Shown piece after piece: positions 17,579 to 22,200 of a DNA stretch of 22,200 nucleotides. Each line of letters opens with the position of its first letter. Within the stretch, counting starts at the first letter, position 1. The translations under genes and the position numbers were made by a program. Below the pieces are notes generated by a model. The model ran no database searches, was not told the DNA's origin, and was given only the letters and a program-made list of their open reading frames with translations. Source of the DNA: a virus; the IMG/VR virus record IMGVR_UViG_3300048130_000007, positions 1-22,200 of that record. The stretch is one strand, 5' to 3'.

Positions 17579-17941
17579 ATGGACAAACTAACCGCAAAAC
17601 AAAGCGAAGCGTACCAACGTATTAAGACGGCACTGCGTAGCGCTCGGCATATTGGTGAGCTTGATGAAGACCTGTTAAAAATGGCGGCGTGCCTATCGGT
17701 AGAGGTTGTTGACCTGCAAGCTTTGATAGACGAAAAAGGTTACACTTACGAATTTAAAAACAGGGACGGCGGCACGATGACGAAGCACAGGCCTGAACAT
17801 CAAATGCTCGTAGAGTCAAGATCCAAATACTTGGTAGTTCTAAAGGAGTTAGGCATGACACCAGCAGCGCGCAAGCGCATTGATGTTGAGGTAGAGCTTG
17901 ACGACGAACTAGAGAAGCTGCTAACATTTAAAGATGCATGA
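17579..17941 (+). CDS. Terminase small subunit (P27 family)
   Basis: A 120-residue protein of the P27 terminase small-subunit family, which recognises viral DNA for packaging. Its end is diagnostic: RPEHQMLVESRSKYLVVLKELGMTPAARKRID, matching the family's 'hP-----e----l--l---lGLTPaaR-rv'. An earlier helical segment (LDEDLLKMAACLSVEVVDLQALIDEKGYTYE) is also typical. The start at 17579 is chosen because it follows the -7 box; an open frame from 17507 would run through the hairpin and promoter. The stop overlaps the large subunit start by 8 nt. Confidence 0.88.
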   Translation: MDKLTAKQSEAYQRIKTALRSARHIGELDEDLLKMAACLSVEVVDLQALIDEKGYTYEFKNRDGGTMTKHRPEHQMLVESRSKYLVVLKELGMTPAARKRIDVEVELDDELEKLLTFKDA

Positions 17942-19628
17942 AGGCGAAGCGCATCAGTACGCGCTGGATATAATCCAAGGCAACACAACTGCAAGCAAGT
18001 ACACGCGCAAAGCGTGCGAACGTTACTTAAAAGATTTAGACACAGCCGAGGAACGCGGCTTAGAGTTTAGGCCACAAACCGCGCAGGCTTACATTACATT
18101 TTTTCAAAAGGCAATTCGTCACACAGTAGGCGAATGGGACGGCCAAGCGTTCGATCCGCTTCCTTGGCAAAAGTTTATATTGTGGAATCTTTACGGGTGG
18201 TTTCGTGAGGACGGCACTAGACGTTTCAACTATGCTTATATTACGGTTGCTCGCAAGAATGGCAAGACGACACTTATGGCAGGCTGTGCGCTCGCTGCTC
18301 TTTTCTTTGATCAGGAAAAAGCTGCCGAGGTTTATTTTGCAGCAACTAAAAAAGACCAAGCAAAGATCGGATTCGACGAAGCGCAAAGGATGGTTCAAGT
18401 TTCGCCGCCGCTCAGGAAACACCTAAAGGCTGGCAAGCACGATATTAAAGCGCCGACGCTCTCGGCGCGATGCACGTACCTAAGCGCAGACCGCGATACG
18501 CTTGACGGCTTGAACATACACTTTGCAGGCATTGACGAATACCACGCACACCAAACCGATGGCGTGGCAAACGTGCTGCGTTCAGGAATGCAGGCACGCC
18601 GTAACCCGATGCACCTCACAATTACAACAGCAGGCTTTAATCGTGAATCGCCATGCTACGAATTACAAAAGACTTGCAAGGAAATACTCGACGAGGTTAA
18701 ACATGACGACTCGCAATTTGCCATAATATACGAGTTGGATGACGATGACGACTGGACCGACAACAGCACATGGATAAAAGCAAACCCGTCATTGGGCACA
18801 GCGTTGCGGCCTCAGTTACTAGACAGTCAATTACAACAGGCTATCAATGTCGGAGGATCGCGTGAGGTAGAATTTAAAACCAAGCACCTTAATAAATGGG
18901 TGACCGCTTCCAAGACGTGGATACAGGACGAAGTATGGATGCAGAACAAACGCGACGCAGAATTAAAAGGCTTGCGCTGCTATGGTGGCCTTGACCTTGC
19001 AAGCGTTTCGGATATGACGGCGCTGGTTATGGTGTACCCTGACGAAGGCGGCTACCATGTGCGCGGCCACTACTGGCTACCTGAAGACACGGTGCACGCT
19101 GTGCTTGATCGTGACCCTGGCCATATCTACCGAACCTTTGTTGATTTGCCAAACGTGCATTTGACTGATGGCAATGTTACAGACTACGCAAGCATAAGGC
19201 GAAAGGTCAGCGGCGTAATGAATCGACCAGAGGGCCAGGTCATTGATGAAACCAACCTAATGCAAAATTACAACGTTGAGAAAATTGCTTTTGACAGATA
19301 CAACAGCACACAGATTGCAATCGACTTAGTGGATGACGGCGTACCACTTACTCCATTTGGTCAGGGCTTTGTTTCTATGAGCAGCCCCACAAAGCAAGTT
19401 GAGGTATTGACGCGCACGGGCAAACTGTGGCATGATGGTGACCCCGTCCTACGCTGGGCGCTAGGTAACGTAGAACTAAAGACAGACCCAGCAGGAAACA
19501 TTAAAGCCGACAAACAAAAGAGCAGCGGTAAGATTGATCCGATTGTGGCAATGATTATGGGCATAGGCGAACACATGAAAACGCCTAACGATTCCGACGG
19601 CTTTTTTGAAATTATCAACCTTTCGTAA
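17934..19628 (+). CDS. Terminase large subunit
   Basis: The 564-residue packaging motor with ATPase and nuclease domains. ATPase: LPWQKFILWNLYGW (the adenine-binding region), Walker A-like VARKNGKTTL at about 105-114, and Walker B FAGIDEYHAH at about 197-206, with the catalytic Glu directly after Asp. A coupling-like segment (HLTITTAGF) follows. Nuclease: RCYGGLDLASVSDMTALVMVY at about 346-365, with later acidic residues (EKIAFDRYN, KIDPIVAMIMG). Full length for the HK97-like class. It overlaps the small subunit by 8 nt and is followed by a 10-nt gap before portal. Confidence 0.95.
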   Translation: MHEGEAHQYALDIIQGNTTASKYTRKACERYLKDLDTAEERGLEFRPQTAQAYITFFQKAIRHTVGEWDGQAFDPLPWQKFILWNLYGWFREDGTRRFNYAYITVARKNGKTTLMAGCALAALFFDQEKAAEVYFAATKKDQAKIGFDEAQRMVQVSPPLRKHLKAGKHDIKAPTLSARCTYLSADRDTLDGLNIHFAGIDEYHAHQTDGVANVLRSGMQARRNPMHLTITTAGFNRESPCYELQKTCKEILDEVKHDDSQFAIIYELDDDDDWTDNSTWIKANPSLGTALRPQLLDSQLQQAINVGGSREVEFKTKHLNKWVTASKTWIQDEVWMQNKRDAELKGLRCYGGLDLASVSDMTALVMVYPDEGGYHVRGHYWLPEDTVHAVLDRDPGHIYRTFVDLPNVHLTDGNVTDYASIRRKVSGVMNRPEGQVIDETNLMQNYNVEKIAFDRYNSTQIAIDLVDDGVPLTPFGQGFVSMSSPTKQVEVLTRTGKLWHDGDPVLRWALGNVELKTDPAGNIKADKQKSSGKIDPIVAMIMGIGEHMKTPNDSDGFFEIINLS

Positions 19629-19633
19629 CTTGC
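19626..19633 (+). promoter_or_regulatory. Promoter-like box TAACTTGC before portal
   Basis: TAACTTGC begins with the terminase stop codon and fills most of the 10-nt gap. The G of its TTG lies 7 nt before the portal ATG at 19639. A TTG at 19606-19608 is 17 nt upstream, a possible -33 element. It matches the box at 4748 in all eight bases. Confidence 0.38.
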
Positions 19634-19638
19634 GCACA

Positions 19639-20829
19639 ATGGCAAATTTGTTCCAACGGATTTTTAAGCGTGGTGGTTATCAGGTAGCCTATACGGGTTA
19701 CCCTTCCTTTGCATCACACTTGCGCGGCATCTCAACAAAGAGCGGTGCATTTATTGACACGGAAACGGCACTAGGGCTAACCACTGTTTATGCCTGTGTT
19801 AGTCGTATCGCGTCAACCATTGCACAGCTGCACTTGGATATAATGACGCGCAACGAAGACGGAGTTGTAAAAGCCACGGGCCACGTAGCGCAGGACCTCA
19901 TCAGCCAAGAGCCAGAGCCAGGATATACAGCCTTTGACTTTTGGGAAACGTACATTAGCAATGTTCTAATTTACGGCAAGGCATACGCCATAATTAAGCG
20001 TTTGCCGAATGGCGACCCATATGAACTTTGTTTAGTCAACCCAAAGAGCGTAAAGCAAAAGATGGTTGACACTGATTTAGTGTATGACATAAAGGACCAT
20101 GGCATTTACTTCCATGCAGATATGCTGATTACTTGCAACCTGTATGGTCAGAGTCCGATTGAATTGCACCGCGAAATGTTGGGACTAGCCAAGGCAGCCC
20201 AGGACTTTGCTAGTGAGTTCTTTGGTAGCAGCGGAAACATGACGGGCATACTGTCAAGCAACGAGCCGCTGAAGAAAGAGCAGATTGATATTATCAAAGA
20301 CAGTTGGAACAATAGCGGCGATCAGCTAGGCACGAAGCTTTTACCTTTTGGCTTTAGCTATAACCGCATAGCTGTTGACCCTGAGAATGCGAGTTTAACC
20401 GAGCAGCGCGATTTTCTGAATCAAGAAATTTGCAGAATCTTTGGCGTGCCGCCGTCTATGGTTGGCGTCCAGTCCAATGTAACTTACAGCAACACGGAGC
20501 AGCAAGCCATTCAGTTTGCAAAATATACGATTGTGCCCTGGACGCGCAGGCTAGAGCAGGAAATGAATTGCAAGCTGTTAGCACCTGACGAACGGCCTAC
20601 ACACTTTACACGGTTTGACTTAAGCGACCTATTGCGAGGCGATAGCGTTAGCCGCGCACAATACTATGACACTCTGATTAAATCAGGGGTCATGTCAATC
20701 AATGAGGCGCGAGCCGCTGAAGACCTCAACGCGGTTGACGGAGGTTCAATTCACACCGTGCAAGTGAATCAAATCGCGTTAAACAGCCTTGAAGATTACA
20801 GCAAAAAAATTAGTAGCGATGGAGAATAA
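19639..20829 (+). CDS. Portal protein (HK97 family)
   Basis: A 396-residue portal of the HK97 type; twelve copies form the DNA channel at the capsid vertex. The features fit: FQRIFKRGG near the start, TALGLTTVYACVSRIASTIAQLHLDIM (typical 'a-l-vtaVyaCv-lia-tia-lpl'), DFWETYISNVLIYGKAYAIIKR, LGLAKAAQDFASEFFGSSGNMTGIL, PFGFSYNRIAVDPENASLTEQRDFLNQEICRIFGVPPSMVG ('l-err-f-n-eIaraFgVPp-llG'), and TIVPWTRRLEQEMNCKLL. The ATG at 19639 is preferred because it lies just after the promoter-like box; an ATG 11 codons earlier is inside the terminase. The gene overlaps the protease-capsid gene by 11 nt. Confidence 0.95.
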   Translation: MANLFQRIFKRGGYQVAYTGYPSFASHLRGISTKSGAFIDTETALGLTTVYACVSRIASTIAQLHLDIMTRNEDGVVKATGHVAQDLISQEPEPGYTAFDFWETYISNVLIYGKAYAIIKRLPNGDPYELCLVNPKSVKQKMVDTDLVYDIKDHGIYFHADMLITCNLYGQSPIELHREMLGLAKAAQDFASEFFGSSGNMTGILSSNEPLKKEQIDIIKDSWNNSGDQLGTKLLPFGFSYNRIAVDPENASLTEQRDFLNQEICRIFGVPPSMVGVQSNVTYSNTEQQAIQFAKYTIVPWTRRLEQEMNCKLLAPDERPTHFTRFDLSDLLRGDSVSRAQYYDTLIKSGVMSINEARAAEDLNAVDGGSIHTVQVNQIALNSLEDYSKKISSDGE

Positions 20830-22200
20830 AAAAGATGAGCGATTAAATGAACTGCGTAAACAGTACGGCGATAACGTAGAACTGCGAACAAGCGAAGTGC
20901 GAGCCGCTGGCGATGACGCTCTAGTTATCGAAGGCTATGCCGCAAACTTTGAGCAGGTTACAGACCTGGGATATTTCAAAGAACAGATTGCACGCGGTGC
21001 GTTCGATGAGGTCATGGAAGATGACGTTCGGCTGTTGCTCAATCATGACGGCGCACCGATGGCACGAACGAAAAACGGCACGCTAGAATTAAGCGTTGAC
21101 GAAAGCGGCCTAAAGTATCGGGCTGCTTTAGCAGACACGCAAGACGGGCGCGACCTTTACAAACTAATAAAGCGCGGCGATATATCACAAAGCTCGTTTG
21201 CGTTTACAATACAGGATCAGGAATGGAACGAATCGCGCACCATGCGCACCGTGACTAAGATGGCGCGACTGTTAGACGTGTCACCTGTAACGTATCCAGC
21301 ATATCCAACTACTACGGTGGCAGCACGAAACATGGCAGATGTAAAGCCTGAGCCAGTGCAAGAAACCGAAACGAAAACAGAGGCAACAACTGAAAGTCAG
21401 GAAACACGTACCTTTGCTACAACAGCGGAACGACCCGCGAAATCTTTTAAGAATATGAATTTTAGAAACAGCACAGATGCGGCCCGCTACATCAGCCAAC
21501 TAGAGGCTAAGCTCGGCAACATCAACGACCTCGCAGAAACCGAGGAACGCGCGTTGACCTCTGAGGAATTGGAAGAAACGCAAGACATTCACACAAAGCT
21601 CGAAGCGGCTGAACAGCAGCGCGATGCATTGTCAAAAAACGAAGCACGCCTAAAGCGTCTTGCCGTTGCAGCCGATGCGGTTGTTCGAAGCGACAAGGAA
21701 GTAATTAAGGCAACAGCACAGTTTGACTTAGGCAAGGCTTTGCGCGAAGCAGCACAGGGCGGTGTAACTGGATTGGAAAAGGAAATTGCACAGGAAGCAC
21801 GCAGCGAAGCATCTGCTTTGGGCTTGGGCTTGCGCGGTGATTTTGCTATTCCACAATCTATGTTGAACGAAGCACGTAACGTTTACGGTGTAGACGCTGG
21901 CGCAGCTGGTGTAAATGACGCAGTGACAACAGTAGCCACTGAGGTGACTGCATTGGTTGGCGCTTTGCGTTCTAACTCTTTGCTTGCTGCAACAGGAGCA
22001 ACACAGCTGAACGGGTTTGTTGGCGATATTAAGATGCCTTCACTTCCAACTGACGCGGCAGAAGAGCCAGCAGAAGCAGCGGCCATTACAGGCAACACGG
22101 GTGCGATGGGTCAACAGACTCTAAGCCCACAGCGTATTGCTCAGCAGATGATCGTTACTAAGGAAGCTATCAACCAAACCAACGGCAACATGGCCGAGGT
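20819..22200 (+). CDS. Fused prohead protease and major capsid protein (partial at right edge)
   Basis: This frame starts at ATG 20819 and stays open to the window edge (460 codons). Residues about 20-160 are an HK97-type prohead protease: EGYAANFEQVTDLGYFKEQIARGAFDE, catalytic H76 in LLLNHDG, and S126 in SQSSFAF, followed by the strand VSPVTYPAYPTTTV. Residues about 175-300 are a linker and a coiled coil (ISQLEAKLGNINDLAETEERALTSEELEETQDIHTKLEA), like the capsid delta/scaffold domain. From about 335 the HK97-fold capsid begins (GLRGDFAIPQSMLNEARNVYGV, then TALVGALRSNSLLAATGA, GDIKMPS and ETKE-like ITKEAIN). Protease, scaffold and capsid form one polyprotein, where HK97 uses separate genes. 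It should be cleaved during maturation. Confidence 0.88.
   Translation, partial: MENKKDERLNELRKQYGDNVELRTSEVRAAGDDALVIEGYAANFEQVTDLGYFKEQIARGAFDEVMEDDVRLLLNHDGAPMARTKNGTLELSVDESGLKYRAALADTQDGRDLYKLIKRGDISQSSFAFTIQDQEWNESRTMRTVTKMARLLDVSPVTYPAYPTTTVAARNMADVKPEPVQETETKTEATTESQETRTFATTAERPAKSFKNMNFRNSTDAARYISQLEAKLGNINDLAETEERALTSEELEETQDIHTKLEAAEQQRDALSKNEARLKRLAVAADAVVRSDKEVIKATAQFDLGKALREAAQGGVTGLEKEIAQEARSEASALGLGLRGDFAIPQSMLNEARNVYGVDAGAAGVNDAVTTVATEVTALVGALRSNSLLAATGATQLNGFVGDIKMPSLPTDAAEEPAEAAAITGNTGAMGQQTLSPQRIAQQMIVTKEAINQTNGNMAE

Follow-up and report, generated by a model that had tools for sequence, protein, structure and literature searches.

When protease and capsid are fused in one phage gene, it is awkward to see how one protease per subunit fits into the shell and how it leaves again. 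The stretch of DNA analysed here (the window; 22,200 nucleotides, which is the entire viral record IMGVR_UViG_3300048130_000007) raises this question at its 3' end, where a stop-free frame of 460 residues begins within the last 11 bases of the portal gene and is cut by the end of the record (Table 1). A preliminary description, made from the letters alone, had read this frame as a polyprotein of protease, scaffold-like coil and capsid, and had taken the fusion to force a 1:1 ratio of protease to capsid subunits. Our analysis bears out the first reading and argues against the second.

The protease assignment is firm. The window protein matches the Pfam profile Peptidase_S78 (PF04586; E 3.3e-45, 154.6 bits against a cut-off of 21), and both H76 and S126, which we take to be the catalytic His and Ser of an S78 protease, are present as the preliminary description had stated. 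By profile and by residues, the protein thus carries a putative S78 prohead protease at its N-terminus. The partial capsid region scores only 15 bits with PF05065, below the cut-off of 24.2, because the record ends within it. The capsid end, whose search downstream the preliminary description had proposed as a check, lies beyond the record but is complete in relatives. In L003, whose protein is 96% identical to the window protein over 460 aa, the fused gene codes for 672 aa, with S78 at residues 24-176 (154 bits) and PF05065 at 376-657 (36 bits), both above cut-off; the HK97 prohead protease model TIGR01543 also matches (106 bits, cut-off 59). Another relative, L060, reaches 69.2 bits with PF05065 (cut-off 24.2). 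The last base of the window aligns to L003 position 3955 and the first to 4648. Since the two record ends flank a gap of about 690 bases (L003 3956-4647), mostly the 3' part of the fused gene, what is missing of the gene very likely falls within it. The record resembles a nearly whole, circularly permuted genome, both of its ends (1-60 and 22140-22200) aligning to L003; the record ends share no exact repeat 10-60 bases long.

Table 1. Features of the fused gene and its neighbours, in window positions; residues are those of the window protein.
Feature	Position	Strand	Remark
Terminase large subunit gene	17934-19628		Precedes the portal gene
Portal protein gene	19606..20829	+	PF04860, E 7.7e-86
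Fused prohead protease-linker-scaffold-capsid gene	20819..22200	+	3' end past the record
Start codon of the fusion, ATG	20819..20821	+	Within the portal frame, which stops at 20829
Peptidase_S78 domain, residues 26-175	20894..21343	+	Pfam profile; TIGR01543 in L003
His76	21044..21046	+	Invariant in 36 aligned relatives
Ser126	21194..21196	+	Invariant in 36 aligned relatives
Disordered variable linker, residues 171-212	21329..21454	+	pLDDT below 50 at 171-212 in the L003 model
In-frame ATG (M213) at the linker/scaffold junction	21455..21457	+	Proposed second start, for the scaffold-capsid chain
Helical scaffold (delta-like) segment, residues 218-333	21470..21817	+	L003 model, which matches HK97 prohead I from residue 301 on
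Predicted maturation-cut stretch, residues 334-377	21818..21949	+	Inferred
Start of the HK97-fold capsid domain, residue 376 on	21944..22200	+	Match below cut-off in the window; profile match in L003

The order of the parts is also that seen in an AlphaFold model of L003 (36 sequences, mean pLDDT 72), which we used in place of an earlier model built from 19 close relatives (pLDDT 40). The model shows a folded protease, a disordered segment that stops at residue 212, just before M213, helices at 218-333, a stretch of low confidence at 352-377 and an HK97-fold core. It superimposes on HK97 prohead I (VIA Z 15.6, 241 residues, rmsd 4.0), and Foldseek matched it to the capsid protein of roseophage R4C (8gta_A, E 6e-12). 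On the strength of the model, the capsid part of L003 has an HK97 fold, in a region that PF05065 matches too. The same R4C structure, PDB 8gta, is the best sequence match among solved structures; in the main text of its paper (PMC10276861), the words 'protease' and 'cleaved' do not occur. Judging from the comparison with HK97, the border between scaffold and capsid probably lies after the helix at 319-333, somewhere in 334-377. The self-cleavage region proposed earlier, at about 305 to 340, was therefore near the mark but probably a little early.

The fusion is shared by many relatives. Among 62 loci listed, 41 relatives were checked, and in 40 of these the gene is a single closed frame, 630-674 aa long from the start of the match; in the remaining one, L002, the fused frame runs off the contig. 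Four viral scans yielded at least 145 fused and at least 4 split loci, counted once per distinct capsid end, numbers that are no census since at most the best 80 loci of each scan were kept. The count was made over 242 loci, with 23 left out and 29 more (L001 and the named phages) not entered; a smaller comparison, of 172 loci, left out 23 with a single domain. Three capsid pieces that are cut at the contig start and lack a protease (L212, L217 and L256) stand outside the 145. One of the four split loci, L247, has a frameshift inside the protease (around position 2767) and is otherwise like the fused L123, so that it may represent a sequencing error or a broken gene. Because the record ends inside the gene, one might suspect that two genes were wrongly joined during assembly or sequencing, a possibility that the preliminary description had named in the form of a frameshift error. 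We rejected this possibility, which hardly deserves any weight: the whole gene stands in one frame in the 40 relatives, and the 145 different fused loci and cultured phages show the same arrangement.

A scan of genomes with query A1 gave no match, and one with query A3 gave nine loci. Only one of these is fused (L272, from a Pirellulaceae MAG). The other eight, in Hymenobacter, Flavobacteriales, Bacteroidetes, Balneola, Chelativorans, Sulfitobacter, Rhodobacteraceae and Limisphaerales, have a capsid frame without protease, and in four of them a separate protease frame lies in the same stretch. In three alphaproteobacterial loci the order is reversed, the protease frame following the capsid frame (L275:4235-5017, L277:4397-5014 and L278:4490-5032). 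A tree of 55 capsids, with long branches, requires at least two changes between the fused and split states, the split L121 being sister to a fused group.

The feature that bears on the 1:1 ratio is a methionine at the junction of linker and scaffold, M213 in the window protein. By pattern search, a methionine was found at this place in all 145 different fused relatives, and in 42 representatives (90% clustering) it was also checked by eye. It stands 149-161 residues ahead of the start of the capsid model in every one of the 145 sequences; on its other side, 16-64 residues, variable in length and sequence, separate it from the end of the protease model. Few parts of the protein are less conserved than the linker, and conservation climbs at M213. 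In the most divergent clade (4 of 30 aligned rows) the methionine is found two residues further on, still at the border.

We compared this position with the starts of stand-alone capsid proteins. In a joint alignment, from which the stand-alone L279, L280 and EPP-1 (L065) were left out, the junction methionines of the 42 fused representatives occupy columns 46, 48 and 49; the stand-alone capsid proteins, 11 of 11, have their first residue in columns 46-49. Ten of these starts are the first ATG of the frame or annotated; that of L277 is the second Met, chosen by homology. The NCBIfam capsid model TIGR01554 agrees, its profile position 2 matching residue 202 of L123, six after junction Met 196. 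The two genes lie close together in several split loci: protease and capsid overlap by ATGA in L268 and by TAATG in L066 and Cellulophaga phage phi39:1, and are one base apart in L204. In L121 (4330-4420) they share a frame, with a lone TAA immediately ahead of the capsid ATG; this locus is one stop codon short of a fusion. An in-frame start codon is thus conserved at the domain border, as a nested start would require. The methionine may in part have been inherited from before the fusion.

Start signals in the window's own group give a mixed picture. No Shine-Dalgarno sequence was seen at the junction ATG within the group (median rank 0.87), nor at the upstream start (20819) in the window. Most other gene starts of the group are without one as well: for 137 mechanically chosen downstream ATG starts in related loci, the median dG was 0.1, and 11 were at -5 or below. 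Little use of Shine-Dalgarno sequences is typical of Bacteroidota. Some of the split relatives sit in Hymenobacter and Flavobacteriales genomes. RNA structure in the region is weakest at the junction ATG (mean MFE -2.2 vs -5.4 to -11.6 at 10 or more codons away), which is also the G-poorest point, with a G fraction of 0.08 upstream. In all 42 representatives it surpasses 80% of codon positions in openness, and it is the most open of all in-frame methionines in 21 of 42, where 2.5 would be expected. Under synonymous resampling, however, the native RNA was only 0.18 s.d. more open than its synonymous versions, so that the openness follows from the amino acids. We take it as permissiveness and not as separate evidence of selection on the RNA; as proof of an internal start, it is weakened by this control.

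In two other groups of fused phages the junction often does carry a Shine-Dalgarno sequence, as in phages CRP-406, CRP-811, GMA5 and Coeur. The first of these, our second group, comprises roseophages, Hapuna- and Jilinvirus and others (15 rows, one of them, CRP-823, a near-copy of CRP-821). The third consists of ten genes of RRH1-like actinobacteriophages, nine of them with a junction Met. Each of the two groups includes phages closely related to one another. For the comparison among in-frame methionines, CRP-823 and SallySpecial, which has no Met at the junction, were left out, leaving 14 and 9 genes. The junction Met had the strongest Shine-Dalgarno sequence of all in-frame methionines in 8 of the 14 (0.9 expected) and in 7 of the 9 (1.3 expected). 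In the second group the junction methionines had been selected visually, ahead of any energy calculation; in the third they were picked from listings that also displayed the energies, which makes the count of 7 of 9 the weaker one. Across the 15 rows, 7 had a junction whose pairing ranked in the top 5% of codon positions for strength (median rank 0.06), and the stronger Shine-Dalgarno sequence stood at the junction in 9 and at the annotated start in 5, with one tie. Against synonymous versions, 7 of 14 genes of the second group and 1 of 9 (Coeur) of the third had a junction signal at 0.1 or below. The junction was not the strongest in S-CBS3, RcCronus, ECO1230-10, PT1, Mica and MQ-4, nor, in the third group, in RRH1 and EricDab; the junction Met of S-CBS3 and EricDab has little or no Shine-Dalgarno signal. 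In CRP-823 (L186:1186-4114, PV211013.1), two overlapping 'major capsid protein' genes are annotated where CRP-821 has one long fused gene, suggesting a frameshift.

We think it likely, from these comparisons, that the gene is an in-frame overlapping pair that would yield little protease-scaffold-capsid and much scaffold-capsid. Initiation at 20819 would give the chain of protease, linker, scaffold and capsid; initiation at the ATG at 21455 would give scaffold and capsid alone, probably the chief source of shell subunits. The full-length minority could co-assemble with the short form through the scaffold and capsid domains common to both, and so bring the protease, on its flexible linker, into the prohead. 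There the protease would cut itself free and then remove the scaffold segments, presumably near residues 334-377, and the fragments would leave. An internal start of the capsid, which the preliminary description had named as a finding that would speak against it, is thus favoured by the comparison, although the standing of the short form as main product is something we infer. The 1:1 ratio forced by fusion is probably wrong, given the junction Met in 145 of 145 relatives, its agreement with the start site of stand-alone capsids and the Shine-Dalgarno sequences in other phages.

It could instead be that only the full-length chain is made, each subunit entering with its own protease, all of them cleaving themselves after assembly and the fragments leaving. 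Of 149 different loci in which both domains occur (from the best 80 loci per scan), 145 retain the fusion, which argues that it is useful; M213 lacks a Shine-Dalgarno sequence and its openness is explained by amino-acid content; and three fused phages have no visible internal signal (S-CBS3, EricDab) or no Met (SallySpecial). In HK97, moreover, the scaffold domain is joined to every capsid subunit, at 1:1 (PMC10275583). Yet such a scheme leaves unexplained why a methionine persists where linker and scaffold meet, at the very start site of stand-alone capsid genes, and why Shine-Dalgarno sequences are frequent at the junction in other fused genes. It would also place about 15.9 MDa of residues 1-345 in the shell, vs 6.0 MDa for residues 213-345 alone, assuming T=7, 415 subunits and a cut site at residue 345. 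We therefore regard it as unlikely. Still less probable, in our judgement, is that both starts are used with the full-length chain as the main product and a minor or regulatory short form. The upstream start lies inside the overlap with the portal gene and could be translated by coupling, and 5 of the 15 second-group rows have the stronger Shine-Dalgarno sequence at the annotated start; against this, the upstream start of the window has none, and the junction is the stronger site in 9 of the 15.

More broadly, and with somewhat less assurance than for the window gene, we favour the view that in tailed phages such fusion genes generally consist of two genes overlapping in one frame. In at least three unrelated-looking groups, protease-free capsid would be made from a second start where linker and scaffold meet, with a start signal that fits the host (Shine-Dalgarno in phages of proteobacteria and actinobacteria, an open A-rich site in the window's group, which lacks Shine-Dalgarno sequences). 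Through the fusion, the shell would then receive a fixed amount of protease, and the 1:1 polyprotein would be a misreading. If the gene does carry a second start, the problem of one protease per subunit vanishes: the protease dose would be fixed by two initiation rates, fusion would be a simple means of packaging the enzyme inside the shell, and database entries for the 'major capsid protein' would misplace the N-terminus of the main product.

Fusions of this kind were known before, as the preliminary description had noted. Some GenBank entries are already named 'major capsid and protease fusion protein'. Fusions have been described in Arthrobacter clusters AM, AU and AN (phages Circum and Maggie) and in RRH1, where they are likened to lambda and HK97 fusions (PMC5513430), in Powelldog (PMC12760985) and in thaumarchaeal proviruses (PMC6563490). 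The passages of PMC5513430 consulted contain nothing on start sites of the fusion gene, and a search of openly licensed papers found none on an internal start in protease-capsid fusions. An ATG before the protease in EpicDab gp9 is at another place and in another connection (PMC9671378). The literature yielded no proteomics on protein starts for any member with a fused gene, N-terminal data for phiHAP-1 included. The fusion itself is thus not new; the new part would be the presence of the capsid inside the nested product.

Among known systems, the actinobacteriophage fusions (Rhodococcus RRH1, Gordonia GMA5, Coeur and others) resemble the window gene in having protease, linker/scaffold and capsid in one frame, and a junction Met in 9 of 10 genes. 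Unlike the window gene, they have a Shine-Dalgarno start and gave no Pfam match at E 0.001 (RRH1, GMA5 and BlueFeather scanned). The roseophages CRP-406, CRP-811 and CRP-821, the Hapunavirus phages VP882 and phiHAP-1, the Jilinvirus ECO1230-10 and Acinetobacter phage Alexa likewise have a fused 'major capsid protein'. As in L003, S78 and PF05065 occur in one gene in all four of those scanned (CRP-406, VP882, ECO1230-10 and Alexa), and as in the window the junction has a Met, chosen by eye, in all 15 rows. Identity to the capsid part is about 28% where BLAST matched. The roseophages have longer N-terminal parts than the window gene, and most of their set has a Shine-Dalgarno sequence at the junction, where the window has none. 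The fused family is already held in the PHROG library: PHROG 617 'major head protein' (626 positions) matches L003 at 24-659, across both domains, under a name silent on the protease. HK97, with its gp4 protease and its gp5 capsid with delta domain, shares with the window gene the TIGR01543 protease model and a scaffold N-terminal to an HK97-fold capsid; unlike in the window, protease and capsid are separate genes. In lambda C/Nu3, an in-frame nested start makes the scaffold from within the protease-scaffold gene, and the capsid protein has a gene of its own. The nested product of lambda thus lacks the capsid, whereas the nested product proposed here would include it.
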